Shown: in pieces, positions 16,909-39,555 of the stretch | Position numbering within the stretch: the first letter of the stretch is position 1 | Layout of the letters: the number at the start of each line of letters is the position of its first letter | Assembly: GCF_001676615.1 (NCBI RefSeq) | Contig: NZ_LYXZ01000006.1 | Location: 62,001-126,000, forward strand | DNA from: Labrys sp. WJW | Lineage (GTDB): Bacteria > Pseudomonadota > Alphaproteobacteria > Rhizobiales > Labraceae | Direction: 5' to 3' | Length of the DNA stretch: 64,000 nucleotides | Made by a program: the position numbers and the translations under genes | Notes under the pieces: model-generated | Seen by the model: the letters and a program-made list of their open reading frames with translations, nothing else | Databases searched by the model: none | What the model was told of the DNA's origin: nothing

Positions 16909-19221
16909 TCACCCGCCGATATTGGCTGCTGCCAGCACCGCCATGTTGACGAGATCGGTGTCCTTGGCGGCCAGCGGCACGATCTGCACCGACTTGTCGA
17001 GGCCGACCAGGATCGGGCCGATCACCGTGGCCCCGCCGAGCTCCTGCAGCATCTTGGTGGCGATCGAGGCCGAGTGGAAAGCCGGCATGATCAGCACATT
17101 GGCAGGCCCTGACAGGCGGCAGAACGGATAGAGCGCCATGGCCTCGCGGTTGAGCGCGACATCGGCGCCCATCTCGCCGTCATATTCGAAATCGACGCGC
17201 CGGCGGTCGAGAATACGCACGGCATCGCGCACGCGCTCGGCCCGCTCGCCCTCGGGATGGCCGAAAGTGGAATAGGCGAGCATGGCCACGCGCGGCTCAT
17301 AGCCCAGGCGCTTGGCCACCGAGGCCGCCTCGATGGCGATGGCAGCCAGCTCCTCCGAGGTCGGCATGTCGTGCACGGCAGTATCGGCCACCAGGACCGT
17401 GCGCCCGCGCGCAATGGCGATGGAAAGGCCGAGGACGCAATGGCCGGGCTTGTCGCTGACGACGCGCCTGACATCCTCGAGGGCGATCGAATAATTGCGG
17501 GTCAGGCCAGTGACCATGGCGTCGGCATCGCCCATCGCCACCATGCAGGCGGCGAAATGGTTGCGGTCGATCGAGGCCAGGCGCACGCAGTCGCGCATCA
17601 AATAGCCCTGGCGCTGCAGCCTGTCATAGAGATATTGCGCATAGGCATTGGTGCGCGGCGAGATGCGGGCATTCTGGATCACCATGCCTTCGCGCAGCTC
17701 GACGCCGGCAAACGCGGCGGCCGCCTCCACGCGATCCTCGCGGCCGACCAGGATGGCGGTGCCCAGCCCCTGGTTGACGAAGGACGCGGCGGCACGGATC
17801 ACCGCCTCCTCCTCGCCCTCGGCGAACACCACGCGCTTGGGCGAACGGCGGACCCGGTCGAAGATGCCGGCCAGCGTGCCGGCGACGGGATCGCGGCGGG
17901 CCGAGAGCGCAGCGCGATAGGCAACGAGATCGGCGATCGGCTTGCGGGCGACGCCGGTCTCCATCGCGGCCTTGGCCACGGCCACCGGCACGCGCGTCAT
18001 CAGGCGAGGATCGAACGGGGCGGGAATGATGTAGTCGCGGCCGAAGCGCGGCCGCGCGCCCTGATAGGCGCTCGCCACCTCGTCCGGCACCTCCTCCTGG
18101 GCAAGCTCGGCCAGGGCCTGGGCTGCCGCCACCTTCATCTCCATGTTGATGGCCGTGGCATGCACGTCGAGCGCGCCGCGGAAGATATAGGGAAAGCCCA
18201 GGACATTGTTGACCTGGTTGGGGTAGTCGGAGCGGCCGGTGGCGATGATGACGTCGTCGCGCACGGCGTGGGCCTCGTCCGGCGTGATCTCCGGATCGGG
18301 ATTGGCCATGGCGAAGACCACCGGATTGGGCGCCATCGAACGCAGCATCTCGGTGGTGAGGGCGCCCTTGACCGACAGGCCGAAAAAGATGTCCGCGCCG
18401 TCGAGAGCCTGCGCCAATGTGCGCCGGTCCGTCTCGGCGGCATGGGCGGATTTCCACTGGTTCATGCCATCGCTGCGGCCTTTGTAGACCACGCCCTTGG
18501 TATCGCAGAGCAGGACGTTGTCCGGCGCAAAGCCCATGGCCTTGACCAGCTCGACGCAGGCGATGCCGGCCGCCCCGGCGCCGTTGACCACCAGACGGGT
18601 GGAGTTGATGTCGCGCCCGGTCAGCTTCAGGCAGTTGAACAGGCCGGCGGCAGCGATGATGGCGGTGCCGTGCTGGTCGTCATGGAAGACCGGGATGTCC
18701 ATCAATTCCTTGAGGCGCTGCTCGATGATGAAGCATTCCGGCGCCTTGATGTCTTCCAGGTTGATACCGCCGAAGCTCGGGCCGAGATAGCGCACCGCAT
18801 TGATGAAGGCATCGGCGTCCTTGGTATCGATCTCCAGATCGATCGAATCGACATCGGCAAAGCGCTTGAACAGCACGGATTTGCCTTCCATCACCGGCTT
18901 GGAGGCCAGTGCGCCGAGATCGCCGAGACCGAGAATGGCGGTGCCGTTGGAGATTACCGCCACCATGTTGCCCTTGGCCGTATAGTCATAGGCCAGCGCC
19001 GGGTTCTCCGCGATCGCCCGCACAGGCACCGCCACGCCCGGCGAATAAGCGAGCGAGAGGTCGCGCTGCGTCGCCATCGGCTTGGTCGGTACCACCTCGA
19101 GCTTGCCTGGCTTGCCTTGGGCGTGGAAGGCCAGGGCCTCCTGATCGGTGAAGCTGGGGCGGGCTTGATTGGAGCGGACCGGGGTCGAGCCGACTGGGCG
19201 CGGCGGTTTCTTATCCGTCAT
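16909..19221 (-). CDS. maeB: NADP-dependent malic enzyme with C-terminal phosphotransacetylase-like domain
   Basis: 770 residues from the ATG at 19221 (MTDKKPPRPVGS). Oxidative decarboxylation of malate to pyruvate. The N-terminal malic domain has SLAYSPGVAVPVRAI and GNMVAVISNGTAILGLGDLG. The Rossmann domain has RLVVNGAGAAGIACVELVKAMG. The region from about residue 440 onward is a phosphotransacetylase-like domain (VVFAEGEEEAVIRAA, VADTAVHDMPTSEELAAIA) that in this MaeB class is regulatory, binding acetyl-CoA, rather than catalytic. Length and domain order are those of rhizobial Tme/MaeB. Monocistronic. Confidence 0.93.
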   Translation of the reverse strand: MTDKKPPRPVGSTPVRSNQARPSFTDQEALAFHAQGKPGKLEVVPTKPMATQRDLSLAYSPGVAVPVRAIAENPALAYDYTAKGNMVAVISNGTAILGLGDLGALASKPVMEGKSVLFKRFADVDSIDLEIDTKDADAFINAVRYLGPSFGGINLEDIKAPECFIIEQRLKELMDIPVFHDDQHGTAIIAAAGLFNCLKLTGRDINSTRLVVNGAGAAGIACVELVKAMGFAPDNVLLCDTKGVVYKGRSDGMNQWKSAHAAETDRRTLAQALDGADIFFGLSVKGALTTEMLRSMAPNPVVFAMANPDPEITPDEAHAVRDDVIIATGRSDYPNQVNNVLGFPYIFRGALDVHATAINMEMKVAAAQALAELAQEEVPDEVASAYQGARPRFGRDYIIPAPFDPRLMTRVPVAVAKAAMETGVARKPIADLVAYRAALSARRDPVAGTLAGIFDRVRRSPKRVVFAEGEEEAVIRAAASFVNQGLGTAILVGREDRVEAAAAFAGVELREGMVIQNARISPRTNAYAQYLYDRLQRQGYLMRDCVRLASIDRNHFAACMVAMGDADAMVTGLTRNYSIALEDVRRVVSDKPGHCVLGLSIAIARGRTVLVADTAVHDMPTSEELAAIAIEAASVAKRLGYEPRVAMLAYSTFGHPEGERAERVRDAVRILDRRRVDFEYDGEMGADVALNREAMALYPFCRLSGPANVLIMPAFHSASIATKMLQELGGATVIGPILVGLDKSVQIVPLAAKDTDLVNMAVLAAANIGG

Positions 19222-19384
19222 TGCGGGGGCGTTTCCATTATCAGGGGAACCGACCCTAAGCACAATTACGGGCTTCGTCCACGGACGATGCCGCGAAGGC
19301 CGCTGTTCCTCCTGCTTCCAAGTGGGAAGAAAAAGCAGCAGGAACCGCGCTGCCGGCCCATCGCGTTCACTGCGAAAAAGGGCG

Positions 19385-20248
19385 TCAGGCTGCCCGGCGG
19401 CCGTCGCGATAACCCTCGAGCCGGCCCTTCAGCGTGTTGAGATAATAAATCGCCCGGCCGCGTTGGCCACGTGCTCGGCTGAGGACATAGCCCCCGAAGG
19501 AGCGCAGCATGTAGTTGAAGGAATAGAGCGTGCCCATGCGATGCTTGGCCAGGACATAGCCCATGCCGCGGCCATAGCCGCGCGCCTTCTGCTGCATGCG
19601 GACATCCATCATGTCGATGCGAATCTCGGGATGATGGCCATAGATGGCGTCATCATAATAGGAGCGATAGCCGCGCTCCAGCATGCGCAGCACGATGTCG
19701 GGCGCCTCGCAGGCCTGCCAGGGCGAGGTGGCGCCGACACCGACATCCTCGTCATAGCCGCCGACGGCCTCGAAAACATCGCGTCGGCAGAAGGACACCC
19801 ATTCGATCAGCGTGTCGAAGACATCGCGGGCGCCGGTCCAGCGTGCCCCCTCGGCAAAGCGACCATTGATCGAGCGCCCCGTCTCGTCGGCGGCCCGGCC
19901 GTTGACGATATCGGCTCCCGTTTCCGCGAAGGTCTTCCGCACCTTTTCCAGCAGCCAGGACGGGTAGGTGCAATCATCATCGGGAAAGCCGAGCAGCTCG
20001 CCCTCGGCGACCTTGGCGCCATTGTTGCGGGCCCGGCTTGCACCCGGCACGCCGGGCGTGCGCAGATGGCGGATCGGGAAAGGGCGCATCTTGCGCGCCA
20101 GCACCTCGGTAACCCGCTCGTCGCGATTCTGGTCGACGATGATCACCTCGAAATCCCTGAAGGTCTGGGTTTCCAGGCTGTCGAGCATCAATGCGATCTC
20201 CTCGGAGCGTCCGAGCGTCGCCATCACCAGTGAAAAATGTACGGCCAT
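19385..20248 (-). CDS. Family 2 glycosyltransferase
   Basis: 287 residues with a GT-A fold: FSLVMATLGRSEEIALMLDSL at the start, VIIVDQN, then a DDDCTYP metal-binding acidic motif and a GARDVFD/GGYDEDVG acceptor-side region. It probably transfers a sugar to a lipid-linked or nascent polysaccharide at the inner membrane. It is the last gene of a minus-strand run (flippase, GT2, GT2) with 15 bp to its upstream neighbour, so co-transcription is likely. Donor and acceptor sugars cannot be told from sequence. Confidence 0.85.
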   Translation of the reverse strand: MAVHFSLVMATLGRSEEIALMLDSLETQTFRDFEVIIVDQNRDERVTEVLARKMRPFPIRHLRTPGVPGASRARNNGAKVAEGELLGFPDDDCTYPSWLLEKVRKTFAETGADIVNGRAADETGRSINGRFAEGARWTGARDVFDTLIEWVSFCRRDVFEAVGGYDEDVGVGATSPWQACEAPDIVLRMLERGYRSYYDDAIYGHHPEIRIDMMDVRMQQKARGYGRGMGYVLAKHRMGTLYSFNYMLRSFGGYVLSRARGQRGRAIYYLNTLKGRLEGYRDGRRAA

Positions 20249-20263
20249 CGTCTGCGCCTTGAC

Positions 20264-21142
20264 CTACAATTTGAGAATCCGCGCAGGATCGAGTTGCCCC
20301 CGTACCAGATCCCACAGAGCTAGAAGATTGCCGGCGAGCCGTCCGCGCCGGTCGGTCCAAGGCTCCGGAAAGGCGCTCTTGACCAGATTGGAAGCCAGGT
20401 TTTCGATGCTGCCCTCCAGCGCACCGCGCAGGCTCATATTGCCCTTGCGCATGATGTAGACGCGGTTGGCGATCTGCGAATAGCCGAGCCGCCGGCCCGG
20501 ACTGCGGCCGCCTGACTTGGTGCCCAGATGCACGCCGCGCAGGCGCCCACTCCTGACGATCCGGCCGAAAGGCGCGAGCTGCCGGGAGAAATCGACATCC
20601 TCGAGCCAAGCATAGAGCGGCAGCTTCTCGTCGAAGGCAAGGCCGTGCCGGCGCACCGGCTCGAGCCGCACCGCCATGTTGCAGCCATAGCCGTTATAGA
20701 CCGGCTCCAGCGTGTCAGCCGCGCGATTGGGGCCCGCCGCCTCCAACCTGTCGAGGCCCTCGCGCATGCCGAGCCCCGCTCCCGGGGCGCCATCGGCGAG
20801 CACCGTCCCGGTGACCATCACCATATCGGGATTTTCGACAAACAGCCTGACGGTCTCGGCCAGGAAATCGGGCGCGGGCAGGAAGTCGTCGTCGAAGAAC
20901 ATCACGATGTCCGCATCGGTGGCGGCCATCAGGGCATTGCGCTGATGCGGCAGGCCGACCGGGCCCGCGATCATCTTCAGGCCCGGAACGAGCTGGCGGA
21001 GGGCGGCTTCGTCGGCATCGGCGGGCTTGGCCGGGCAGATCAGGAAATCGTCGGGCCGGCGCTCCTGGCCCATCATCACCCGCACGGTCTCGGTCAGCAC
21101 ATCCCGTCGGCCCGCCGTCGCGATTGCGACGGCAATCCGCAT
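20264..21142 (-). CDS. Family 2 glycosyltransferase
   Basis: 292 residues from MRIAVAIATAGRRDVLTETV, where family homology begins; an ATG at 21205 would add 21 residues and sit 4 bp from the flippase stop, so the start is not settled. The FFDDDFLPAPDF metal-binding motif and a WLEDVDFSRQL (ED) motif with the typical spacing of GT2 enzymes are present. It forms a minus-strand operon with the flippase and the second GT2, probably assembling repeat units of an exopolysaccharide. Confidence 0.83.
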   Translation of the reverse strand: MRIAVAIATAGRRDVLTETVRVMMGQERRPDDFLICPAKPADADEAALRQLVPGLKMIAGPVGLPHQRNALMAATDADIVMFFDDDFLPAPDFLAETVRLFVENPDMVMVTGTVLADGAPGAGLGMREGLDRLEAAGPNRAADTLEPVYNGYGCNMAVRLEPVRRHGLAFDEKLPLYAWLEDVDFSRQLAPFGRIVRSGRLRGVHLGTKSGGRSPGRRLGYSQIANRVYIMRKGNMSLRGALEGSIENLASNLVKSAFPEPWTDRRGRLAGNLLALWDLVRGQLDPARILKL

Positions 21143-21209
21143 GTTTTCATGCGCCTTCACGCCGATCTCTCCATGATGCAGGTCTTCCTTGCCATCGCCA
21201 CGCATGTCG

Positions 21210-22700
21210 TCAGGTCCTGAACCGAAGCCGTGCCCGCGACATGAGCTGGTCGACCAGGCCGGTCAGCCCGAGCGCATCGCCGAACCAGCGCGACATCAGA
21301 TAGACACTGCCGACATAGGTCACGAGATAGACCGCGCCGGCAGCGCCAATCCGGACCAGATTCATGACGATGTCGGTACTGTCTTGAAACAGGGTCGAGA
21401 CATAGACCAGGAAAAGCGCACTGATCACCAGGGCTGCACAGGGCCCGACAAAGGCGGCAAGCTGGGCACGATAGCCCAACCCGATCATCGATTTCACCGC
21501 CATCATGGTCGAGACCAGCACCGCAAGCGTGGCAAGCCCCTTGGCTGCAATCGCTCCCATAACGCCGAAGCACAGGATACCGGCGATGGTGAGCGGCACG
21601 CGCACGGCAAACTCGATCAGGTTCCTGAAGGTGATCTGCCGCGACTTGTTGAGACTGACGGCCAGCGGCGCCATCGGCAGCGCCGGAATGGAGCCGATGC
21701 AGGCCAGGGCGATGCCGGTAAGGATGGGGGCGGCCTCGGCCCATTGCGGGCCGAGAAAGACATGAATCAGGTGCTCGGCCATGATGGCGCCGAAGCAAAG
21801 GATCGGGGCCATCAGCAGGAAAATGCCGACACTGGCCTTGAGATAGCTGTTCCGAAGGCCGCCATTCTGATGCGCATTGACGAAGGCCACGTTCAACGGC
21901 GTCCCGAGCGGGGCGGCCAGGACCTGGAACGGCAGCGAGGAAAGATCGTTGGCCATGACATAACGCCCGAAGGCGGCGGGCGGAATGAAACGGGGTAGAA
22001 TGAAGCGGTCCGCCTGCCAGTTGATGGCCGACAGGATCTGCGACATCAGGTTCCAGGTCAGGATGTCGGCAAAGACCGGCCAGGCCTTCAGCGTCAGGCG
22101 CGGGCGCATCGGCGCGAGCCAATAGGAGCCGACCAGGGCGACGAAGGCGACCAGAATGGTTCCGAGCGCGATCGACCAGTAGCTCCGCGTCAGGATCGCC
22201 ACGATGATCGCGGTGGTCACGGCAATGGTCTTGCTGGTGATGTCGAGCCCTGCCTGGCGGCGGAAATCCATGCGCCGGTTGAATTCCACCAGCATGGGAC
22301 TGACGCAGCCGCGCATGGCAGGCGCCAGCGCCAGGCTCATCACCAGCGGCACCAGCCGGGGCTCGCCATAGAAGATCGAGATGGGCCAGGCGCAGAGAAT
22401 GAAGAAGCCGGCGATAATCAGCCCGCGCAGGGCGCCCAGCGTGAAAGCGGTGTTGTAGACCTCCGCGGTCGGCTCGGGAACGCGCAGCATGGCTGCGCCG
22501 AGCGGCAGTTCCATCACGGCCTCGACGATGAAGATCAAGGTCATCGCCATCGCGACCAGGCCGAAATCGCTGGGCCCGAGGAAACGGGCCAGCACGATCA
22601 GGGCGACGAAATCCACCGACTTGCCGGCAAGCCGCGCTCCGGCCGTCCAGGCACCGGCCTTGGCCGTCTGTTTCGAAAGTGCGCCGATTTCAGCCCTCAT
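21210..22700 (-). CDS. Wzx/ExoT-like polysaccharide flippase (MOP superfamily)
   Basis: 496 residues with about 12-14 hydrophobic segments and the N-terminal pattern GARLAGKSVDFVALIVLARFLGPSDFGLVAMA, typical of Wzx/RfbX-type oligosaccharide exporters. It would flip undecaprenyl-linked repeat units across the inner membrane. First gene of the minus-strand flippase-GT2-GT2 operon. The neighbouring GH16 hydrolase and Wzy-like protein fit a Wzx/Wzy-dependent exopolysaccharide system. Confidence 0.85.
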   Translation of the reverse strand: MRAEIGALSKQTAKAGAWTAGARLAGKSVDFVALIVLARFLGPSDFGLVAMAMTLIFIVEAVMELPLGAAMLRVPEPTAEVYNTAFTLGALRGLIIAGFFILCAWPISIFYGEPRLVPLVMSLALAPAMRGCVSPMLVEFNRRMDFRRQAGLDITSKTIAVTTAIIVAILTRSYWSIALGTILVAFVALVGSYWLAPMRPRLTLKAWPVFADILTWNLMSQILSAINWQADRFILPRFIPPAAFGRYVMANDLSSLPFQVLAAPLGTPLNVAFVNAHQNGGLRNSYLKASVGIFLLMAPILCFGAIMAEHLIHVFLGPQWAEAAPILTGIALACIGSIPALPMAPLAVSLNKSRQITFRNLIEFAVRVPLTIAGILCFGVMGAIAAKGLATLAVLVSTMMAVKSMIGLGYRAQLAAFVGPCAALVISALFLVYVSTLFQDSTDIVMNLVRIGAAGAVYLVTYVGSVYLMSRWFGDALGLTGLVDQLMSRARLRFRT

Positions 22701-23193
22701 GGCGGCACAGGCTCCCCTCTGCCTGCCCCCTTAGGGACCAAGCAGTTTCGAAGCCGGCGCCGGAAGCTCCGCGCTGCCATTGGGGAGATACGATCAGGAT
22801 CATCATCGAGGTTGAAGTGTATGGAACGTGGATATCACGGCGCGACGACCGGAGCCTTTCATCAGCGAACAAAAATCTCGACCCGGGGTTCGTGCCCCAG
22901 ACCGGCTATCAAAACAAGTCGTGGCTTATCCGGCCGCGGATGACCGCCGATGATGACGGCTGCTACCAGCGATGGCTATTTTATGCAAAGGCCTCGCAGC
23001 CTGACAGCTATCCATTCGAAGGATCGCCAAAAGGGAACCACTCCCCCTTTTGGGAGGTGGTCCGCGTCGCACCCTCTGGGCTATCCTCAGGCAGCTCGGC
23101 AAAGACCTGGCGGCTCCCAATCATCACACATCAGCAGCCCGTTGCAACGCTCCGTCGATGGAGCACCCGCGAGCCTGAAAGGAATTCGTACCC
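22701..23193. other. 493-bp regulatory gap between flippase operon and GH16 gene
   Basis: Divergent promoter region with lower GC than its surroundings. It contains the shared motif described at 23002-23026, and directly after it an AAAAGGG / CCCTTTT inverted repeat. No convincing small gene was found. The GH16 ATG is preceded by AAAGGA. Confidence 0.6.
23002..23026. promoter_or_regulatory. Putative polysaccharide-locus operator, copy 1
   Basis: GACAG-N-TATCCATTCG-N2-GGAT, an imperfect dyad with arms TATCC and GGAT separated by 7 bp. Nearly the same string occurs upstream of the GT4 gene (25825-25849). It lies about 170 bp before the GH16 gene and may be a regulator site. Confidence 0.5.
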
Positions 23194-24060
23194 ATGAGTC
23201 CCATCACCCGGCGCCTGTTCCTGGCCGTTCCCGCCCTGGGCCTGTTCGCCGCTCCGGCATGGGGGCAGGCCGCACCGGATCTCAGCGGCTACAAGCTCAT
23301 CTTCAGGGACGAGTTCGACGGCACCGAGCTCGATCGCGACAAATGGCACATCGGCACCAATCCCAAGGGCGAGCAGTGGGGTTCCGACAGCTATTTCGTC
23401 ACCGCCAGCCAGGCGGACGCCGAGCTCTTCGGCCAGGTCTACCAGGTCGCGGACGGCAAGCTGCGGATCCGGGCCAACCACAAGGCCGACTTTGCCGATC
23501 CCACCGGCTGGAAGCGCAAATGGTATTCCGGCATGATCAGCACGGCCTTTCCCAACGGCAAGCCGCCGAGCGCAGCCTTTCGGCGCGGCTATGTCGAGGT
23601 CCGCCAGAAATTCCCGGCCGGAAAGGGCGTGTGGCCGGCCAATTGGGCCCTCAACCTGAAATCGCAGACCCCTGAGGGCGATCCGCTCGGTTCCATCGAG
23701 ATCGACGGGCTGGAAGCCTATGGCGTCGACATGACCATCTTCCACACCATCGTCCACAATTGGGGGAACAAGACCTCTTCCCCCGCCATGTCGCAAAAGC
23801 TCCCCGACCTGACCGCCGATTTCCATACCTATGGCTATCTGGTGGGCGACAACGAGGTTTCCGCTTTTCTCGACGGCAAGCTCGTCCACACGGTTTCGCT
23901 GTTGCGGGCCGATAGCGTCGACCGCTTCTTCTGGATGTTCAACCTGGCCATGGGCGGCGGCTGGCCGATTACCGTTCCCGAAAACGGCCATTACGACATG
24001 CTGATCGATTATGTCCGCATCTATTCCAAGGATCCGGACGCGGTTGCCATCAACCCATGA
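23194..24060 (+). CDS. Secreted glycoside hydrolase family 16 protein (ExoK-like endoglycanase)
   Basis: 288 residues. The N-terminus MSPITRRLFLAVPALGLFAAPAWG is a possible twin-arginine signal. The GH16 core starts YKLIFRDEFDGTELDRDKW and has the catalytic motif E-I-D-G-L-E (E-x-D-x-x-E) preceded by WPANWAL. The HTYGYLVGDNEVSAFLDGKLV strand and a C-terminal YDMLIDYVRIY complete the jelly roll. In rhizobia such enzymes (ExoK, ExsH) cut the nascent exopolysaccharide to set chain length. Its place inside the polysaccharide locus supports that role; the exact glycosidic bond is unknown. Confidence 0.86.
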   Translation: MSPITRRLFLAVPALGLFAAPAWGQAAPDLSGYKLIFRDEFDGTELDRDKWHIGTNPKGEQWGSDSYFVTASQADAELFGQVYQVADGKLRIRANHKADFADPTGWKRKWYSGMISTAFPNGKPPSAAFRRGYVEVRQKFPAGKGVWPANWALNLKSQTPEGDPLGSIEIDGLEAYGVDMTIFHTIVHNWGNKTSSPAMSQKLPDLTADFHTYGYLVGDNEVSAFLDGKLVHTVSLLRADSVDRFFWMFNLAMGGGWPITVPENGHYDMLIDYVRIYSKDPDAVAINP

Positions 24061-24077
24061 TTTCTAACCCATAGCTT

Positions 24078-25529
24078 CTAACCCATGACCTCGGCTCTGG
24101 CCGGCCTGATGGCCTCCGCCGTCTGCTTTCTGGCCCCCGAATCGAGGTCGCAGGTAGCGCAGGCAATGCCGGCCAGCATGTAGAAGGGCAGGCCGAGATC
24201 GATCAGGGTACCCGAGATCGTCGCCATGATCAGACCCACGAGACAGCCGATCCGCAGGGCGGCGCGCAGCTGGATCGTGGCCCAATCGAGAGGGCGGATA
24301 GCGGGTTTGAACAGCACCATCAGGATGAAGATCCCGTAGGTGAGTGCGCCGATGGCACCGAGATTGGCCAGAACCGCCAGCGGGAAGCTCGAGGCGCGCA
24401 CCGTGCCAATGCCGGCTCCCAGCCCATAGGTCGCGAAGAAAGTCTCGAGCGCCGTCTGGTTCCACATGCCGCGCTCCGCCGCCGACTGGCTCGTTCCCTT
24501 GTTCAGGACGAAGTCCTGTATCATGCCGTAGATCGTTTCTGCCAAGGCGGGAGTGAGCAGCACGGCTGCGACGATCACGGCAAGCAGCAGGGGCGCAAAA
24601 GCGAGATAGGCATAGACGCTGCGCGGCAGGGGCCCTCCCCGCACGAGCCGCAGCAAGGACTCCGCGTAGAGGATCGCCAGCACCACCGGCAAGGCAACAT
24701 AGCCGCTGGTGGAAGTGCAGAAGATCACCAGGAGCAAGTTGATCAGCGCCAGCCAGAATGTGAGCTGAGGGCGGATATTGCCGAGCCAGAGCCGGAGAGC
24801 AAAACTGCCGGCCCACATCGACGACGAGGCGAAGGCCGCCGCCTCGGTGAAGGAGCCGTTGATGCGCTTGAGCCCGTTGACCACGGTATCGTCGTGCATC
24901 GTGTAGGTGGTGTTGCGCATGAAATCGAGCAGGAAGGCGGTTCCCGTCCAGAAGGTGGCGAGATCGACGGCCGCGAAGAAAATATTGAGGGCGCAATAGG
25001 CCACCACCGCATTGGTGACAGCCTCCAGGCCTTCCCTGGTCCGCGCAACGATGTAGCAGATCAGAAAGCAGACGATGTCGCCGATGAAATATACGCTCTG
25101 CGTCAGATTGCCGGTGGTGGGAGAAAGCGGCACCAGAATGGGCGCAGAGCCACCGTCGGAGGTGGCACCGATGGCGGCGACATAGGAGGCCCCGGCGAAG
25201 AAGCGCGGCAGGATGAAGGCCCCGACGATGCCGACAGCCGCCGTCGCAACGAACCAGAATCCCTCGCGCGGAAAGGTGAGGCGTGCCGTGACGACCGACC
25301 AGGTGCCCGGGCGCGTCAGCACGGATGCCGCCGTGAAGCCCAGCAGCAGATGGGCCGGCTGGATGGTGGTGCCCGCCAGGATCAACGCGGCGGAAGAACC
25401 AAAGATCATGCATGGGATGAGCACGGAGACGCCGAAGATCGGCCCGCGTCTCAAAGCCAGGATTCCAAGCAGAATAAAGAAGACGCCGATGGGTTCCAAA
25501 CTCACGCCAGGCCCTTTCTGTCTGCCCAT
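24078..25529 (-). CDS. Wzy/O-antigen-ligase-like polysaccharide polymerase
   Basis: 483 residues with about 11-12 hydrophobic segments and a large periplasmic-type loop in the second half (LAETIYGMIQDFVLNKGTSQSAAERGMWNQTALETFFATYGLGAGIGTVRASSFP is the region around residues 325-380). The topology and the RGMWNQTALETFF/GLGAGIGT pattern resemble Wzy/WaaL (O-antigen ligase) family proteins, which act by polymerising lipid-linked repeat units. Assignment rests on topology and neighbourhood, since the family is divergent. Its stop lies 17 bp from that of the GH16 gene (convergent). Confidence 0.7.
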   Translation of the reverse strand: MGRQKGPGVSLEPIGVFFILLGILALRRGPIFGVSVLIPCMIFGSSAALILAGTTIQPAHLLLGFTAASVLTRPGTWSVVTARLTFPREGFWFVATAAVGIVGAFILPRFFAGASYVAAIGATSDGGSAPILVPLSPTTGNLTQSVYFIGDIVCFLICYIVARTREGLEAVTNAVVAYCALNIFFAAVDLATFWTGTAFLLDFMRNTTYTMHDDTVVNGLKRINGSFTEAAAFASSSMWAGSFALRLWLGNIRPQLTFWLALINLLLVIFCTSTSGYVALPVVLAILYAESLLRLVRGGPLPRSVYAYLAFAPLLLAVIVAAVLLTPALAETIYGMIQDFVLNKGTSQSAAERGMWNQTALETFFATYGLGAGIGTVRASSFPLAVLANLGAIGALTYGIFILMVLFKPAIRPLDWATIQLRAALRIGCLVGLIMATISGTLIDLGLPFYMLAGIACATCDLDSGARKQTAEAIRPARAEVMG

Positions 25530-25899: not shown

Positions 25900-27183
25900 G
25901 TGGATTATGCTCAGATCGTCTTGGCCATGATGCCGCCGGTTTCGAATGTCGAAGCTTGGCGGAAGGACCTTGCCACAGCGGTCAGCCCCGGCGATGCAAC
26001 CACACCATGGCGACGAGCCTTCGCAAGCCGCATCGACAAGAAACTGTTTGGCGTTTTTCCTTTCCGACGAGAGCTGGCCTTGCGCATCCTGCATGTCTTG
26101 AATCATACACGCCGCCTCAACGGTCATGTGCACCTCACCATCGATCTCGCCTGCATGCAGGCGCAGCTCGGTCATGAGGTGGCCATCGCCAGCGGCGATG
26201 GTGACTTCGACGCCTTGCTGGCGGCCCATGGCGTTGAGATCATCCGGATCGACCAGCGCCAGAAGCCCCTGGTGGCGCTGCGCGCGGTCGCCGCGCTCAC
26301 CCGGCTGCTGCGTTCGCGCCGTTTCGATATCGTGCATGCCCATATGATGACGAGCGCGGTGCTGTGCTGGCCGGCCTGCAAGGCGGCGGGCGTGCCGCTG
26401 GTCACCACAGTTCACAACGAATTTGCGCGCAGCGCCGTCGCCATGGGCGTGGGCCGGCGGGTGATTGCCGTGAGCGACGCCGTCGCCCGTTCGATGGCCA
26501 AGCGCGGCATCCCGGCTTCCCGCATCCGCACCGTGCTGAACGGCAATATCGGTTCGCCGCGCCTCTCGGCGCCGGCCGGCCCGCCTGCGGCTCTGGGCAC
26601 GCCCTCGCTTCTCTATGTCGGCGGCCTGCATCCGCGCAAGGGGGCGCCCGTCCTGCTGCGGGCCTTCGAGCGGGTCGCCAGGGAAGTTTCCGGGGCCTCG
26701 CTGCATTTCGTCGGCGACGGCCCGCACCGCGCCGAATACGAGGCCATGGCCGCGGCCATGCCATGCGCGGCGGCGATCACCTTTCACGGTGGCTGGGACG
26801 ACCCGCGGCCTTTCTTCAGGGGAGCGGATGTCTTCGTGCTGCCATCCCTGGCCGAACCGGCCGGGCTGGTGCTCTCCGAGGCCAGCGAGGCGGGCTGCGC
26901 CATCGTCGCTTCCGATGTCGGCGGCGTGCCGGAAATGCTGGATGGCGGCAAGGCCGGCCTGCTGGTGCCCCCCGATGATCCTGCTCGCCTGGCCGAGGCC
27001 CTGGTTTCCCTGCTCACCACCCCCGGAGCCCTGGAGGATGGCAAGAGCCGCGCCCGCGCGAATGCCGAGCGCATGACCCTGGACCGCGTGGTCGAGGAGA
27101 CCTTTGCGGTCTATCGTGAATGCCTGCCGGCTTCGGCCCCAGGCGGGTCTCAGCCCCAGGTCAGCGGGTCGAGGCCTAGATAG
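25900..27183 (+). CDS. Family 4 glycosyltransferase
   Basis: Up to 427 residues. Homology begins at about residue 60 (LRILHVLNHTRRLNGHVHLTIDLACMQ), so the real start may be the TTG at 26080; the first 60 residues look non-conserved. It has a GT-B fold: N-terminal domain with DIVHAHMMTSAV, and C-terminal domain with LLYVGGLHPRKGAPVLLRAF and a PSLAEPAGLVLSEASEAGCAIVASDVGGVPEML donor-binding region (E-x7-E). It transfers a sugar in polysaccharide assembly; specificity unknown. The 3' end overlaps the convergent APH-like gene by 34 bp. Confidence 0.82.
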   Translation: MDYAQIVLAMMPPVSNVEAWRKDLATAVSPGDATTPWRRAFASRIDKKLFGVFPFRRELALRILHVLNHTRRLNGHVHLTIDLACMQAQLGHEVAIASGDGDFDALLAAHGVEIIRIDQRQKPLVALRAVAALTRLLRSRRFDIVHAHMMTSAVLCWPACKAAGVPLVTTVHNEFARSAVAMGVGRRVIAVSDAVARSMAKRGIPASRIRTVLNGNIGSPRLSAPAGPPAALGTPSLLYVGGLHPRKGAPVLLRAFERVAREVSGASLHFVGDGPHRAEYEAMAAAMPCAAAITFHGGWDDPRPFFRGADVFVLPSLAEPAGLVLSEASEAGCAIVASDVGGVPEMLDGGKAGLLVPPDDPARLAEALVSLLTTPGALEDGKSRARANAERMTLDRVVEETFAVYRECLPASAPGGSQPQVSGSRPR

Positions 27184-27968
27184 AAGGCGAGCCGACCCCT
27201 GTCCGGCCGCTGCAGCCCGAGCACCTCGAACAGGCTGGTGAAGGCCGCTTCAGCCTGCTCCGGTCCAGACCAGCTCTCGCCGGCATTGGCCAGCATCAGC
27301 GCAAGATCGGCATAGCGGTCCGCCGTGCCGAGGCGGCCGAGATCGATCATGCCGGTGCAGCGCAGCGTGGCGGGATCGACCATGAAATTGGGCATGCAGG
27401 CATCGCCATGGCAGACGACGCGATCCCCGGCTTCTTCCGCCAGGCGCTGTTCGCGCTGTGCCTCGAGCGCAAGAAGGAGGCCGGCCGGATTCGCCTCCCG
27501 CTGCTCCGGCGGCAGGAAATCCGGATTGACGGCGCCGCGTGACACCACGTCGGTCGCGCGTGCGAGCATGGTCGACAGGCCGCGTTCGAACAGGCACTCC
27601 TCGATCGCCAGCGCGTGCAGCGCGCCGATCCGCGCCGCGATCGACGGCCAGGCCTGCAATAGCTGATTGCCGTCGAGGTCGCTCGCCGGTACGCCGGCTA
27701 TGGCACTGGTGACCAGGCAGGCGCCCTCCTCCCCCGCACGCCAATCGAGCACCTCGGGTGAACCGAGCTTGAAGCGGCTCAGCCATTCGACCCGCCGGCA
27801 TTCTCCCTCCAGGGCCATGGCGCCCCTGCCCCGTGATAGTTTGGCAAAGGCCAGGCCATCGCTGCGGCGATAGACGCTGTCGCCCGATTCACCATGGCCG
27901 ACCACGAGCCATTCTTTTGCCGATGGCAAGGCTGGCAGCAGGCTCTGGATATTGGCGGCCGAAGGCAT
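27150..27968 (-). CDS. APH(3'')-type aminoglycoside (streptomycin) O-phosphotransferase homologue
   Basis: 272 residues from the ATG at 27968, which has GGAG 9 nt upstream. ATP-dependent kinase fold. The nucleotide-side [18 protein letters not shown], the catalytic loop [14 protein letters not shown] (H-G-D-x-x-x-x-N) and the metal-binding [18 protein letters not shown] are all present, and the protein ends in DPLTWG. From memory these segments, and [11 protein letters not shown], correspond closely to APH(3'')-Ib (StrA), including total length (267). So a streptomycin 3''-kinase-like activity is plausible. No mobile element or partner resistance gene is adjacent, so it is likely a resident chromosomal gene, and the substrate is unproven. 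Confidence 0.8.
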
Positions 27969-28320: not shown

Positions 28321-29184
28321 ATGTCTGGCCTCGCCAACCGCCCCTATCTGAAGATGAACGGCATCGGCAACGAGATCGTCGTGCTCGATCTCACCGACGG
28401 GTCGCATGTCGTCACGCCGGCGGAAGCCCAGGCCATCGCGGCACATGAGCCGTTCGACCAGCTGATGGTGCTCTATCCGCCGCAGCAGGCGGGAACAGAT
28501 GCCTTCATGCGCATCTTCAACGGTGACGGTTCCCAGTCCGGCGCCTGCGGCAACGGCACGCGCTGCGTATCCTGGTATCTGATGCCGGTGCTCGGCAAGG
28601 ACCGCCTGGTGCTGCAGACGCCGACCAGCCTGGTCGAGGCCCGGCGCGCCGGTGCGGATTTCACCGTCGATATGGGCCCGCCCGCCCTGGACTGGCAGGC
28701 GATCCCCCTGTCCCGGGACGCCGGCGATACCAGGGCGATCGACTATGCCTATGGCCCGGCCGGGGCTGCCGTCCTGCAATCGCCGAGCGTGGTGAGCATG
28801 GGCAATCCCCATGCGGTGTTCTGGATCGACCGGGATCCCGCCGAGATCGACCTCGCGGCCATCGGCCCGGCCATCGAGCACGATCCCCTGTTTCCCGAGC
28901 GGGTGAATGTCTCAATCGCCCAGGTTCGCGATAGCAGCCATATCGTGCTGCGCGTGTGGGAGCGCGGCGCTGGCCTCACCCGCGCCTGCGGCTCGGCCGC
29001 CTGCGCCACCGGCGTGGCCGCGGCGCGGCTTGGCCTCACCGGGCGCGAGACGCGCATCAGCCTGCCGGGCGGAGACCTCCGGATCGAATGGCGCGAGACC
29101 GATGGTCACGTGCTGATGACCGGCGCAGCGGAACTCGAGCATGAGGCTCGCTTTGCGGCCTCCTGGTTCGCCGACGCGGCATGA
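28321..29184 (+). CDS. dapF: Diaminopimelate epimerase
   Basis: 287 residues; interconverts LL- and meso-diaminopimelate for lysine and peptidoglycan synthesis. Starts at the ATG followed by [23 protein letters not shown]. The catalytic cysteine pair is visible in [10 protein letters not shown] and [11 protein letters not shown], with MGNPHAVFW between. Overlaps mtaB by 4 bp (ATGA), the usual alphaproteobacterial dapF-mtaB pair. Confidence 0.95.
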
Positions 29185-33289: not shown

Positions 33290-34168
33290 CTAGCCGCGCA
33301 AACGGCGGCAGAGATCGTCGAGCTGCTCGAGCGATTTGTAGCGAATCTTCAGCTCGCCGCCATCGCCACGGTGATCAAGCACGACCTTGAGACCGAGTAC
33401 GTCGGAGATGGTCCGCTCCAGGGCAATCGTATCGGGATCTTTCTCGACGCGGCTGCGCGCCCGCAAGATCTTGCCGGCACTTTGCGACTGATCCTGTACG
33501 ATGCTCTCAGCGTCGCGCACCGACATATTCTCATCGATGATCAGCCGGGCCACGCTTTCGGGATCGGAGACCGACAGGAGGGCGCGCGCATGCCCAGCCG
33601 TCAGCTTGCCGCTCACCACATTGACCTTGATCGCATCGGGAAGCTTGAGCAGGCGCAGCGTGTTCGCCACGTGGCTACGGCTCTTGCCGATGACCTTGGC
33701 AAGATCGTTCTGAGAATAGGAGAATTCCTCGATCAGGCGGTCATAGCCGATCGCTTCTTCGATCGCGTTGAGGTCGGCTCGCTGGACATTCTCGATGATA
33801 GCAAGTTCGAGCGCTTCCTTGTCGGAGGCTTCGACGATCGTTACGGGTACATCATGAAGCTCGGCCCGCTGCGCGGCACGCCAGCGCCGCTCGCCAGCGA
33901 TGATCTCGTAAGCATCCATGCTGCCCGCGACGGCGCGGACCAGGATCGGCTGGATGATGCCCTTCTCGCGAACGGAATTCGCGAGATCCTCGAGTTCTTC
34001 CTCGCTGAAATTCTGACGGGGATTCTTCGGGTTAGGCCGCAAGAAACCCGTTGGCACCCGACGCTGCCCCCGGGCCCGTTCGATCGCCGCGCCTTCATCG
34101 CCCGCATCCCCGATCAGGGCTGCCAGGCCGCGTCCCAGCCTCGGGCGCATCTTGTCATCAGAAGTCAT
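33290..34168 (-). CDS. parB: Chromosome partitioning protein ParB
   Basis: 292 residues. ParB/Srx CTPase domain (LRPNPKNPRQNFSEEELEDLANSVREKGIIQP; AGERRWRAAQ; ENVQRADLN), then the HTH that reads parS (YSQNDLAKVIGKSRSHVANTLRLL) and a C-terminal dimerisation region. GERRWRA is the arginine box of the CTP-binding site. It follows parA by 9 bp, forming a parA-parB operon. Four parS-like sites lie within 8 kb (35608, 41610, 41636, 41831). Confidence 0.96.
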   Translation of the reverse strand: MTSDDKMRPRLGRGLAALIGDAGDEGAAIERARGQRRVPTGFLRPNPKNPRQNFSEEELEDLANSVREKGIIQPILVRAVAGSMDAYEIIAGERRWRAAQRAELHDVPVTIVEASDKEALELAIIENVQRADLNAIEEAIGYDRLIEEFSYSQNDLAKVIGKSRSHVANTLRLLKLPDAIKVNVVSGKLTAGHARALLSVSDPESVARLIIDENMSVRDAESIVQDQSQSAGKILRARSRVEKDPDTIALERTISDVLGLKVVLDHRGDGGELKIRYKSLEQLDDLCRRLRG

Positions 34169-34177
34169 GGTCGATCC

Positions 34178-34975
34178 TTACGCAGCACGTAACAATTTCT
34201 CGCGCTGAATCACTTCGGAGGCGAGACGAACATAGGCCTGGCTACCCGGGCATTTGAGATCATACAGCAGGGACGGCTTGCCATAGGACGGGGCTTCCGA
34301 CACGCGAACATTGCGCGGGATCACCGTCTGATAGACTTTCTCGCCCAGGAAATCGCGAACATCTGCCATGACCTGCCCGGAAAGATTGTTGCGGGCGTCA
34401 TACATGGTCAGCACCACACCATGAATGCTGAGATGTGGATTGAGCGAATTACGCACCTGCTCCACCGTGCGCAGGAGTTGCGACAAGCCTTCCAGAGCGA
34501 AGAACTCGCATTGCAGGGGCACCAGCACGGCATCGGCAGCTGCCATGGCATTCACGGTGAGAAGATTGAGCGAGGGCGGGCAATCCACCAGGACATAGGA
34601 GCAGGGGAAATCGCTCGATGAAGTCAGGGCATGGATGGCCTTGCGCAGGCGGAATGCGCGGTCCCGTTCACTCGCAATTTCAAGTTCGACACCGAGCAGA
34701 TCCATATTGGACGGCGCAATATGCAGCCGCGGCACGACCGTCTCGACGATTGCCGCGCGCAGATCGCAATCCCCCACCATCACGTCATAGGTGGTCCGCA
34801 CGCGCTGCTTCATGCCGATTCCGAGACCGGTTGAAGCGTTGCCCTGGGGATCGAGATCGATGATCAGCACATCCTCGCCGATCGCGGCAAGCGCGGTACC
34901 GAGATTGATGGCCGTCGTGGTCTTGCCGACCCCACCCTTTTGATTGGCAATAGTGAGAATACGCGGCAACGTCAT
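34178..34975 (-). CDS. parA: Chromosome partitioning ATPase ParA
   Basis: 265-residue deviant-Walker ATPase, starting RILTIANQKGGVGKTTTAINLGTAL (deviant Walker A KGGVGKT). DLDPQGNASTGLG and VDCPPSLNLLTVNA contain the other nucleotide motifs. It drives origin segregation together with ParB. There is no N-terminal HTH, as expected for chromosomal rather than plasmid ParA. Sits 41 bp downstream of rsmG, in the conserved rsmG-parA-parB order. Confidence 0.96.
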   Translation of the reverse strand: MTLPRILTIANQKGGVGKTTTAINLGTALAAIGEDVLIIDLDPQGNASTGLGIGMKQRVRTTYDVMVGDCDLRAAIVETVVPRLHIAPSNMDLLGVELEIASERDRAFRLRKAIHALTSSSDFPCSYVLVDCPPSLNLLTVNAMAAADAVLVPLQCEFFALEGLSQLLRTVEQVRNSLNPHLSIHGVVLTMYDARNNLSGQVMADVRDFLGEKVYQTVIPRNVRVSEAPSYGKPSLLYDLKCPGSQAYVRLASEVIQREKLLRAA

Positions 34976-35016
34976 GGCACCTATCTTTCCTGCAGCACGA
35001 AGCGTGGAAACGGCAT

Positions 35017-35667
35017 CTATTTGTCACCCGCCAGGCGCTTTGTCGCGGCTTTGATCGAAACAATCTGCCCAGTCGAGTCAGTAAGGCTCGGTATCAATTC
35101 CGCTCGGATATTCCAATATTTAGTTGCTCGGGTCAATTCCTGCCCTACATCTTGACCCTTGAGAAACAACGCACGGGCTCCCGTTTTCAACAGCTCCGCA
35201 CTGTAGTCGAGCAATTCGGGCAGCGACGCCAAGGCGCGGGCTGTGATCAGATCCACCGGACTTTGCCAGTTCGAGACAAAATCCTCGATCCGAACCGCAT
35301 GCACTGTCGCTGGCGCGCCGGTTATACGCGCCACCTCGCGCAAGAAAGAAGCCTTGCGACCATTCGACTCGACCAGATGCACCTGAAATCCCGGCACACT
35401 CTTGTTAGCAATCGCCAGGACCATGCCGGGAAAGCCGGCGCCACTGCCGAAATCGACAATCGTCCTGGCATCCCCAAGCAGGGGAAGCAATTGAGCGCTG
35501 TCGGCAATATGGCGAGTCCAGGCCTGGGAGAGGGTCGACGGGGCCACCAGGTTTTTGATCTTTTGCCAGCGCTGCAGGAGCTCGACATACAGGTCTAAGT
35601 CTCCAACTGTTTCACGTGAAACAGGGAGGGATCGCAGCGCTTCCTGGCGGTCAATATCGAGTGTCAT
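35017..35667 (-). CDS. rsmG: 16S rRNA (guanine527-N7)-methyltransferase
   Basis: 216 residues from the ATG at 35667 (MTLDIDRQEALRSLPVSRETVG). SAM-binding VDFGSGAGFPGMVLAI and LVESNGRKASFLREV are diagnostic of RsmG (GidB). A perfect parS site is embedded in the codons for residues 15-20 (VSRET), as in several other alphaproteobacterial rsmG genes. Between mnmG and parA. Confidence 0.94.
   Translation of the reverse strand: MTLDIDRQEALRSLPVSRETVGDLDLYVELLQRWQKIKNLVAPSTLSQAWTRHIADSAQLLPLLGDARTIVDFGSGAGFPGMVLAIANKSVPGFQVHLVESNGRKASFLREVARITGAPATVHAVRIEDFVSNWQSPVDLITARALASLPELLDYSAELLKTGARALFLKGQDVGQELTRATKYWNIRAELIPSLTDSTGQIVSIKAATKRLAGDK
35608..35623. promoter_or_regulatory. parS: parS site, perfect 16-bp consensus
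   Basis: TGTTTCACGTGAAACA, an exact match to the conserved chromosomal parS, lying in the 5' coding part of rsmG. It is the ParB loading site, 1.4 kb from parB and about 10 kb from the putative origin. Confidence 0.95.
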
Positions 35668-36009
35668 GGCCGGACCATGGCTGATCCCACTCGCGGTGGC
35701 AAGCGAGACCTGGAGTAATCCAACGCTGCGGCCGACCGGCCTCATGAACCGGAGTGGGCTATTTTCATCGGGCGTACGGCATAGCGTGAATCTGGTTCAC
35801 TTAGCTGTCCGCCAGTTTGTTCGGCTTTGTCATCATCGGCTCAATCCGGTGATCCAACCAAGATCTCCGCGTCGTGCTGGCGCCATTCTAAATGGCCAGA
35901 CGTTTTCTTCCTTGAAAGACCTGCATTGGGCTTAGCCTGCGGCATGTCGGTCATGCGACTGCATACCGTTTCGCGGTTCTGGAAAAGATTCGATACGAGT
36001 CCGAATCGA
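35668..36009. other. Gap between rsmG and mnmG
   Basis: 342 bp. A GTGAATC-TG-GTTCAC inverted repeat lies at about 35786. A minus-strand frame crosses it into the end of mnmG but is non-conserved. In many relatives mnmG and rsmG are nearly adjacent, so this spacer is longer than usual. Confidence 0.4.
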
Positions 36010-37890
36010 TCAGAGAGAGGCCCTTGCCTGTTTACGCTTGCGGAGGGCCGCAAGCAGAAGGGTGGTTGCCGCCGGCGTGATACCGTCAATCCGGCTCGCC
36101 TGGCCAATGGTACGCGGCCGCACACTGGCGAATTTCTGCCGGGTCTCATTGGAGAAGCCCACCACGGCCTGGAAGTCAAAATCACCAGGTATTTCAATAT
36201 CTTCGTCACGACGAAAGGCAGCCACATCCGCCTTCTGCCGCTCCAGATAGACGGCGTACTTGGCCTCGATCTCGACCTGCTCGAGCACGGCACCCTCGAA
36301 TCCGGCGGCTTCCGGCCACAGACGGGCAAGATCGGTGAAAGCCACATCGGGGTAGGCAAGGAGATCGAAAGCGGAGCGCCTGACGCCATCACGATTGATA
36401 TGAATGCCAGCCACCGCCGCCTGGTTGGGCGTCACCGAAACGGATCGGCCCCAGGCAAGGGCCGTTTCGAAGGCCGCCTGCTTGGTCTTCCAGGCCCGTT
36501 CCCTGACAGCACCGACCAGACCAAGCGCGATGCCGCGATCGGTCAGGCGCCTATCGGCATTGTCGGCTCGCAGGGTCAGGCGATATTCGGCACGCGAGGT
36601 GAACATGCGATAGGGCTCGCTCACACCCCGGGTGACGAGGTCATCGATCATCACGCCGATATAGGATTCGTCGCGGCGGAAACTAACGCCTTCGGCGCCA
36701 CCCGCCCGGTGCGCCGCATTGAGTCCGGCGACCAGGCCCTGCGCGCCCGCCTCCTCATAGCCGGTGGTGCCGTTGATCTGGCCGGCCAGGAACAGTCCGC
36801 GCACCCGCCGTGCCTCGAGCGTGGCATCGAGCTCGCGAGGGTCGATATGGTCATATTCGATGGCATAGCCGGGCCGGATCATCCGGACCTTCTCGAGGCC
36901 TGGAATGGTCGCGAGCATGGCCTGCTGCACATCCTCGGGCAGGGAGGTCGAGATGCCATTGGGATAGACCGTATGGTCGTTCAGGCCTTCCGGTTCCAGG
37001 AAGATCTGATGGCCGTCCCGCTCGCCGAAGCGCACTACCTTGTCCTCGATCGACGGGCAATAGCGCGGACCCCGGCTCTCGATCTGCCCCGAATAGATCG
37101 GTGCGCGGTGGATATTGTCCTGGATGACCTTGTGGGTCTGCGGCGTGGTACGAGTGATACCGCAGGAAACCTGCGGATTGGACAGATGCGTCGTCAGTGT
37201 CGAGAACGGCTCCGGCGGCTCGTCGCCGGGCTGCATCTCGAGCGAGGCCCAGTCGATGGTTCGGCCGTCGAGACGCGCCGGCGTACCCGTCTTCAGTCGC
37301 CCCAACTCGAAACCGATGCGGGCGAGGGTTCGGGAAAGACCGAGGGCAGGGGCTTCACCGACGCGGCCGGCCGCAATCCTGGTATCGCCGATATGGATGA
37401 TGCCGCTCAGAAAGGTTCCGGTGGTCAGGACAACTGATCCGCAGCCGAATCGATCACCCTTCGTGGTCGATACGGCCCGGACCGCGCCATCCACGATCTC
37501 GATATCGTCCACCTCGGCTTCGACCACGGTCAGATTGGCCTGCTCGGCAATCGCCGTCTGCATGGCAGCGGCATAGAGCGCACGATCGGCCTGCGCCCGC
37601 GGTCCGCGCACGGCGGGGCCCTTGCGACGGTTGAGCACGCGGAACTGAATGCCACCCTGATCGGCGACCCGCCCCATCAAACCATCGAGCGCGTCTATCT
37701 CGCGCACGAGATGTCCCTTGCCGAGCCCACCGATCGCCGGATTGCAGGACATGGTGCCGATCGTCTCGGCCCGATGGGTAATGAGAGCCGTCCGGGCGCC
37801 AAGCCGTGCGGCGGCTGCCGCCGCCTCACAGCCAGCATGGCCCCCGCCCACCACGATCACATCGAATTGCCGGTTCATCATCGAATCCAT
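36010..37890 (-). CDS. mnmG: tRNA uridine 5-carboxymethylaminomethyl modification enzyme, FAD subunit
   Basis: 626 residues (622 if it starts at the second near Met, 37878). Partner of MnmE in forming (c)mnm5U34 in tRNA. N-terminal FAD motif [21 protein letters not shown], then [25 protein letters not shown]; a second dinucleotide region and the C-terminal helical domain. Conserved cysteine in SCNPAIGG. Its partner mnmE is the next gene upstream on the same strand. Confidence 0.96.
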
Positions 37891-38123
37891 TCGCCCGCCA
37901 TCCGCGGCCTCGAACGCCCATCCGTCATGGCGAACGCCGCCGGACGTTCCAGGGGTTCAGCGCCTGCATCGTCCGGCTGCGCTCACGGTGATGGCGCAGA
38001 ATATCCGTGTTTCGGCTGCAGCTCTTACGCTGAAGCGGCCTCCACGTCAAAACCAGCGTGTGGCCGAGAGCTGGAGGAGTGGTTCCAGCCAGTCACGCTG
38101 GCGTTTCCAATACCTCGTTCCGC

Positions 38124-39446
38124 TCACTTGCCGATGCAGAATTCGCGAAAGATCACATCATAGATCTCGTCGATATCGACCCTGCCGGTCAGCCGGCCGA
38201 TGGCCCTCACGGCCAGGCGCAAATCCTCGGCGACGAATTCCACCGGCGTCGTCTCATCCGCCGCCTGCACCGTCGCCAGATGGGCCTTCACGATCTCGAG
38301 CTCCCGGCGATGACGCTCCCGCGTCACAAGGGCTGTCTCACCGCTCTCCAGGGCTGTTCTCGCCGCCTGCTCGAGCCGCTCCAGCAAGGCCGGCATGCCG
38401 GCACCGCTGCGAGCCGATAGGCCGAGCTCGAAGCCCACAGGCAGAGTCTGCGGCAAGGCAGCCTGGTCGTCGTCCTGCTTGGTGAAAACGCGCAGGAGAG
38501 GAACGGGCAGATCGGGTGGGTCGGCGCGGGCATCGCCGGCCTCCAGCCAGATTACCAGATCGGCACGGTCCAGGCTTGCGCGCGCCCGTTCTACGCCGAT
38601 CGCCTCGACGACATCCACTGTATCGCGCAAGCCGGCAGTGTCGATCAGGGTTACCGGATAGCCGCCCAGATCGAGATGCACCTCCAGTGTATCGCGAGTG
38701 GTGCCGGCAATGGGGGAGACGATGGCGACATCGCGCCGGGCCAGGGCATTGAGCAGCGTCGACTTGCCGGCATTGGGCGGGCCCGCAATCACCATCACCG
38801 CGCCCTCGCGCAACCGCTCGCCGCTGCGTGCGCCTCGCAAGGCCGCTTCGATCTCCGCCAGCAAGGCTTCGGCGCCCGAGCGGACCGACTGGAACAGGGC
38901 AGGGACATCCTCCTCGTCGGGAAAGTCGATCTCGGCTTCCATCAGGGCCAGCAGACCGGCAAGACGCTGGCGCCAGGCCGTAGCCGCCCGCTCCAGCGCA
39001 CCACCCGCCTGCCGCAGCGCCTGCCGCCTTTGGCTGCCCGTCTCCGCCTCGACCAGGCTGGCGATACCCTCCGCCGAGGTCAAATCCATCCGGCCATTCG
39101 CGACGGCCCGTCGGGTGAACTCGCCCCGTTCGGCCAGACGAAAGCCCGGCAGGGCGGCGATAGCGGCGATCACGCCAGAAATGATGGCGCGACCGCCATG
39201 CACCTGCAATTCGGCGACATCCTCGCCTGTGAAGCTGGCTGGACCCGGAAAGAACAGCACCAGCGCCTCGTCGAGCACCTCGCCGCCTTCAGGATCCTTC
39301 AGACGCCGCAAGGCGGCGCGGCGCGGCGACGGCACGCTCCCGGCAATCGTTTCCAATCCGAATCGAACCGAGGGACCCGACAGCCGGATCACGGCAACGC
39401 CGGCACGGCCGACACCCGAGGCGAGTGCGACGATGGTCTCAGCCAT
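38124..39446 (-). CDS. mnmE: tRNA modification GTPase MnmE
   Basis: 440 residues from the ATG at 39446 (MAETIVALASGVGRAGVAVIRLSG). N-terminal formyl-THF-binding domain, helical domain, and an inserted G domain (GPPNAGKST, AGTTRD, DTAGLRD), ending in the essential CIGK tail. With MnmG forms the tRNA wobble-uridine modification complex. The G domain appears intact. Confidence 0.95.
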   Translation of the reverse strand: MAETIVALASGVGRAGVAVIRLSGPSVRFGLETIAGSVPSPRRAALRRLKDPEGGEVLDEALVLFFPGPASFTGEDVAELQVHGGRAIISGVIAAIAALPGFRLAERGEFTRRAVANGRMDLTSAEGIASLVEAETGSQRRQALRQAGGALERAATAWRQRLAGLLALMEAEIDFPDEEDVPALFQSVRSGAEALLAEIEAALRGARSGERLREGAVMVIAGPPNAGKSTLLNALARRDVAIVSPIAGTTRDTLEVHLDLGGYPVTLIDTAGLRDTVDVVEAIGVERARASLDRADLVIWLEAGDARADPPDLPVPLLRVFTKQDDDQAALPQTLPVGFELGLSARSGAGMPALLERLEQAARTALESGETALVTRERHRRELEIVKAHLATVQAADETTPVEFVAEDLRLAVRAIGRLTGRVDIDEIYDVIFREFCIGK

Positions 39447-39555
39447 GCGCGAGCACTCCACCCGCTCCGGCAGATCCTGCCCTTGATGACGGCGAGGTGC
39501 TTTCACTTCCCGGCCGGCGCCCCCATACTCTCTTCTTGAAAGAGAGGCTGCCATC

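Follow-up and report, generated by a model that had tools for sequence, protein, structure and literature searches.

Streptomycin resistance is usually discussed in terms of the mobile strA-strB pair. In the IncQ plasmid record that was compared, strB directly follows strA, the gene of APH(3'')-Ib (StrA; RSF1010/Tn5393 type). A chromosomal counterpart has been described from Agrobacterium fabrum, where, in the part of the report available to us, an orphan strB gives measured streptomycin resistance (PMC10521367). The same excerpt shows that an unpaired streptomycin kinase on the chromosome can determine how resistant a rhizobial species is (PMC10521367). Aminoglycoside phosphotransferases and streptomycin kinases have already been reported for Rhizobium tropici genomes in the accessible portion of that work (PMC3557214). 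A large aminoglycoside-enzyme screen, as far as its available text describes, left out six tested enzymes expected to be streptomycin-only because the E. coli host was already streptomycin-resistant (PMC10400643). No streptomycin phenotype of Labrys was found in the sections of the Labrys literature at hand, and searches for literature on latent resistance genes and on Variovorax with strA returned nothing.

The window analyzed here, a 64,000-nucleotide stretch of Labrys sp. WJW (G000:C99:62001-126000; 7.6-Mb draft, 140 contigs, contamination estimate 6.09%), carries the only copy in that genome of a kinase gene that most likely encodes a resident chromosomal streptomycin 3''-phosphotransferase (Table 1). 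The product is homologous to APH(3'')-Ib along its full length, is equally long, and has the same catalytic motifs and the same LDPLTWG at the C-terminus. Unlike APH(3'')-Ib, the Labrys gene is chromosomal, has no adjoining strB and hence lacks the module arrangement of the mobile pair, belongs to another sub-clade, and is 57-59% identical at the protein level. It resembles the A. fabrum orphan strB, in the text available, as a putative intrinsic, unpaired streptomycin kinase on a rhizobial chromosome with conserved genes adjoining; the A. fabrum gene differs in being a putative APH(6) with a measured phenotype, whereas the Labrys gene is an APH(3'') known from sequence (PMC10521367).

The gene is a stop-free 272-aa reading frame with a terminal stop on the minus strand. 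Its product scored 349.8 bits (E 8.4e-105) against the NCBIfam APH(3'') model NF032896, exceeding the curated cut-off of 325, and 159.3 bits against the APH(3') model, below the cut-off of 205; the Pfam APH match reached 92.8 bits. The allele models for APH(3'')-Ib (NF032895) and APH(3'')-Ia gave 334.6 and 250.7 bits, respectively, both below cut-offs of 600. Since the APH(3'')-Ib score lies far under its cut-off, the allele class is excluded and the family is kept. GC by codon position was 0.73/0.52/0.79, and codon usage fell inside the range of 16 other window genes, in line with the host-like composition claimed by the earlier note. Based on NCBIfam, Pfam, codon-position GC, and codon usage, this is no chance ORF.

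The HGDxxxxN and DLG motifs, the LDPLTWG terminus, and the length agree with APH(3'')-Ib, as the earlier note had read from the letters. Over 44 APH(3'') rows including that of the window, counted without L045, L046, and 4h05, 55 positions were invariant, and wherever the other 43 rows were invariant, the window kinase agreed with them. H187 G188 D189, N194, and D209 belong to these 55 positions, and we assume for them the roles held in the APH family (catalytic HGDxxxxN, metal-binding DLG). The best match among solved structures was the 6fuc chain (E 6.3e-67, 48% identity over 257 positions), whose PDB entry is named only 'Aminoglycoside phosphotransferase' and which we take to be a Streptomyces APH(3''), the 6fuc/6fux chain presumably being actinobacterial. 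This chain has the same motifs, but its row lies farther away in the tree (end branch 1.37); the next match was 4h05, an APH(3')-VIII by entry name. The family of the kinase is settled by sequence alone. With the required residues in place, phosphorylation would follow the mechanism established for APH enzymes, and the kinase very probably inactivates streptomycin; streptomycin as substrate, expression, and resistance are all predictions.

Table 1. Features of the kinase locus and of the unlinked second kinase (window coordinates unless a contig is named).
Feature	Position	Strand	Basis or remark
Malic-enzyme-like gene maeB, bounding the variable interval on the left	16909..19263	-	
Rest of polysaccharide block: two GT2 glycosyltransferases, MOP-type flippase, GH16 protein, domain-less ORF	19385..25529	.	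Domain matches, synteny
483-aa ORF, part of polysaccharide block	24078-25529	-	No Pfam/NCBIfam match
GT4 glycosyltransferase	25957..27183	+	Domain match
Predicted APH(3'')-family aminoglycoside (streptomycin) 3''-kinase, 272 aa	27150..27968	-	NF032896, tree place, invariant positions
Leader immediately upstream of the kinase start codon	27969..28020	-	Alignment, conserved in three Labrys species
dapF, bounding the variable interval on the right	28321..29184	+	TIGR00652, 197.5 bits (cut-off 114.65)
Origin-side genes parB, parA-like, rsmG, mnmG, mnmE, rho, hemE	33290..45500	-	
rsmG	35017-35745	-	Roughly 7 kb from the kinase
APH(6)-like kinase gene	Contig C53 of G000, L066:7228-8040	-	APH_6_hur match

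A tree of 47 rows and 272 columns was built after removal of loci that duplicated the same genes, of L047, whose match was broken, and of the distant APH copies L005, L006, L011, and L012 from G003 and G004. In this tree, 44 rows including the window kinase formed one APH(3'') group (98/98), separate from 4h05 and two Mesorhizobium rows, with 4h05 as the one named APH(3') reference. Together with the NF032896 score, this upheld the APH(3'')-like class given in the earlier note; placement in another APH clade, named there as the refuting result of an alignment and phylogeny, did not occur. The three Labrys orthologues clustered at 100/99 support within a group (88/80) that also contained Variovorax, five rhizobial rows, an order-mate, and a 61% identical Labrys copy; when Rhizobium Root483D2 was included, the support was 90/79. 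StrA belonged to another group (86/72), which also comprised Telmatospirillum, Microvirga, the Rhizobium tropici group, and an order-mate pair; two nearly StrA-identical genome-survey matches, each with strB beside it, sat with StrA. By path, the rows nearest StrA were Telmatospirillum and Microvirga. The deep fork uniting the Labrys group with the 6fuc row was weak (67/13). The 61% Labrys copy paired with an order-mate (97/87), and forcing the four Labrys rows together was 14 log units worse and not rejected (p-AU 0.09). Consequently, we make no claim of a separate acquisition of this copy.

Kinase matches were obtained in four of the five Labrys genomes, namely that of the window, two at 83-84% identity (Labrys okinawensis, 84%, and Labrys sp. 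KNU-23, 83%, the closest named relatives), and one at 61%; this fourth genome and KNU-23 each also carried a distant copy at 32-35%. In L. okinawensis and KNU-23, the kinase was flanked on one side by the GH16 gene, the 483-aa ORF, and the GT4 gene and on the other by dapF, mtaB, and a DUF3108 gene, as in the window. Flank proteins were 89-99% identical between the window and these relatives, and the kinase was 83-84% identical. For the three species pairs, the kinase dS was 0.35-0.45 versus 0.20-0.38 for the flank genes measured. The kinase dN/dS among the three species was 0.20-0.31, around two to three times that of the neighbor genes (0.09-0.16), which indicates looser constraint. Since the dS values are alike and dN/dS is low, the kinase is about as old as its neighbors, maintained, and faster-changing. 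It is an old, maintained chromosomal resident of these Labrys species.

The other two Labrys genomes had neither the kinase nor the GT4 gene at dapF, so that the kinase is dispensable; GT4 protein matches were confined to the three genomes with the kinase at dapF. The GT4 and kinase genes lie tail to tail, and their 3' ends overlap by 34 bp. The earlier note had placed the gene beside dapF in a conserved housekeeping neighborhood. The dapF adjacency was confirmed, and the neighborhood claim was half right because the other side is a polysaccharide block, in an interval that differs in two Labrys. In the window, maeB and dapF bracket 9,057 bp (19264-28320) made up of this block and the kinase, while in genome G001 the malic-enzyme gene lies around 200 bp from dapF, and in G004 the two genes enclose around 5.4 kb of different sequence. 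The maeB-dapF interval is therefore variable within Labrys. We infer its history as a choice of two directions: the common ancestor of at least three Labrys species may have acquired the kinase where maeB meets dapF, or the other two species may have lost it. The G004 interval includes an 891-aa ORF without a Pfam match. The 483-aa ORF of the window block, which presumably resembles an O-antigen-ligase-like membrane protein of polysaccharide assembly, has over 93% identity in two other Labrys.

Signs of mobility were sought around the kinase. Pfam and NCBIfam named no transposase or integrase in the 27 ORFs scanned (kinase not counted), which are a subset of those in 10341-46696 and include three small ORFs and the 483-aa ORF without a match; to this extent, the absence of mobile elements described in the earlier note held. 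Among the repeats listed for 19000-28600, no long repeats flanked the polysaccharide block, the pairs being short and imperfect, and the sole tRNA of the window, at 14399, lies outside the block. StrB relatives were absent from the two orthologous Labrys loci with 6 kb on each side, consistent with the statement that no strB is nearby.

Arrival as a strA allele on a transposon or plasmid would be in keeping with a family best known from mobile DNA, with plasmid matches in at least 5000 records, and with interval contents that differ among Labrys. Against this, the kinase was only 57-59% identical to plasmid StrA. The top-ranked place of the plasmid search was APH(3'')-Ib, with 57.2% identity across the full query (at least 5000 records), and most plasmid rows among the matches listed had 59.1% identity over 94%. 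The 60-80% identity band comprised 72 of the best 5000 plasmid records, ranked lower than the top StrA; the best 30 rows listed include two of these, both partial matches. Phage matches numbered four in 50,697 records, three annotated as streptomycin resistance (strA) and one as a kanamycin cassette. Recent acquisition from a mobile element was rejected on the flank-like dS to the sister species and the synteny in three species; as neither an integrase or transposase named in the ORFs scanned nor a linked strB accompanies the gene, we consider it very improbable. The opposite relation, in which the kinase is the chromosomal ancestor of clinical StrA, would suit a gene of the same family on the chromosome of a soil bacterium. 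However, StrA lies in the other group of the tree, and forcing three Labrys and three StrA rows together was 74 log units worse and, with the model applied, rejected (p-AU 5.11e-06, for a constraint group chosen after the tree was seen). In addition, the four StrA-group rows measured had 64-72% identity to StrA, versus 57-58% for the Labrys gene. Direct ancestry of StrA was dismissed on the grouping and the constraint test, and we give it practically no chance. The Labrys kinase is, as judged from the tree, a cousin and not the parent of plasmid strA. Of the ancestral environmental reservoir that the earlier note had imagined, the ancestor fell away, and one of several environmental reservoirs is what stands.

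A relative that drifted to another substrate and confers no resistance to streptomycin could explain why the kinase dN/dS exceeds that of the neighbors; the substrate might be a different aminoglycoside, an aminocyclitol, or a metabolite of the cell. Since the direct neighbor is a glycosyltransferase in a polysaccharide block, a sugar-like substrate is imaginable. Nevertheless, the complete agreement at the positions invariant in the other rows and the score above the curated APH(3'') cut-off speak against such drift, which we regard as unlikely. Moreover, the flank proteins of the two Labrys loci shared no common cluster (at least 40% identity) with the other 39 of the 41 loci compared, so the polysaccharide link is not general. 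The streptomycin 3''-phosphotransferase is the reading that we prefer, and after its arrival the kinase would have been retained under purifying selection.

On the dapF side of the kinase lies a set of genes encoding ParB, a ParA-like protein, RsmG, MnmG, MnmE, Rho, and HemE. A gene set of this type marks alphaproteobacterial origin regions. The cumulative G-C minimum of the window is near 49 kb; the window contains no exact TTATCCACA box, and dnaA of the draft is on another contig (C76). In the complete chromosome of KNU-23, GC skew was sampled in 44 stretches of 20 kb. The skew was negative in 18 of the 21 stretches starting before 2.586 Mb (exceptions at 1.206, 1.340, and 1.876 Mb) and positive in all 23 from 2.586 Mb on. 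The KNU-23 kinase gene is at 2.5726 Mb, and the sign flips within around 20 kb of it, which substantiates the chromosomal position near the replication origin proposed earlier. In A. fabrum, according to the excerpt available, three genes are said to influence susceptibility to streptomycin, and rsmG is among them (PMC10521367). Its closeness to the kinase is probably a coincidence because rsmG is part of the origin-side set.

The APH(3'') family is uncommon in the genomes sampled. At E <= 1e-60, the order sample of 397 genomes yielded 10 with a match (nine over the cut-off), the class sample of 385 yielded one, which is the genome of the window, and the phylum sample of 398 yielded three, which are the genome of the window and two with StrA-like matches; the genome of the window is counted in each sample. 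In a named scan, 69 stretches yielded 35 loci, of which three (L045-L047) are distant. Forty-one loci were compared with a crude gene caller, which gave several loci an opposite-strand ORF or missed the kinase. In 16 of the 41 (15 distinct genomes; L022-L028, L030-L032, L034-L036, L038, L044, L072), all from the Rhizobium tropici group, the same two genes surrounded the kinase, which therefore looks intrinsic in this group. At L022, the neighbors read as a RecF/SMC-type protein and DnaJ, followed by DnaK, and at L019 as a dehydrogenase, with a photolyase nearby. Five rhizobial loci had another common arrangement, and an order-mate pair and some Variovorax loci shared flanks. Judging from the neighbor genes, the compared non-Labrys loci are presumably chromosomal. 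Among the kinase loci searched, dapF adjoined the kinase only in the three Labrys species. The Labrys gene is thus like the APH(3'') genes of Variovorax and Rhizobiales assemblies in identity (54-66%, the distant L045-L047 aside), in the lack of a StrB relative in the flanks examined, and in a position common within its group, as in the 16 Rhizobium loci; it differs in genomic place. Such strA-like genes with no strB in their flanks occupy common places within Labrys, the Rhizobium tropici group, another rhizobial group, and partly Variovorax. They provide a concrete gene set for testing the protective value of intrinsic APH(3'') in soil bacteria and for locating the branch nearest strA. The single Labrys gene is otherwise ordinary, a settled and probably functional chromosomal APH(3'').

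Across the loci examined, StrB relatives occurred only beside StrA (L050, L073, L074) and on contig C53 of the genome of the window (L056, L066). The C53 gene is the sole APH_6_hur match of that genome, and the other four Labrys genomes had none. Its product has 36% identity to StrB and scored 253.7 bits against APH(6), below the cut-off of 325, and it is consequently APH(6)-like but not over the line. Its neighbors are read as fumarase, a DegP-like protease, HflK/HflC, and MiaA. We offer a speculation that we think rather doubtful, in two parts. The dapF-linked APH(3'') and the C53 kinase might act as a split chromosomal strA-strB pair giving intrinsic streptomycin resistance, and orphan APH(3'') genes fixed in several soil genera might be the pool of mobile strA, drawn from a Telmatospirillum/Microvirga/Rhizobium-like branch and not from Labrys.

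The leader of the kinase contains a TTATTCTGCA stretch, with GGAG 9 nt before the ATG, and may represent a promoter or ribosome-binding site. An in-frame ATG at 28001 is a possible alternative start that would lengthen the kinase by 11 residues; in the alignment, this ATG and the one at 27968 are both conserved in the three Labrys species.
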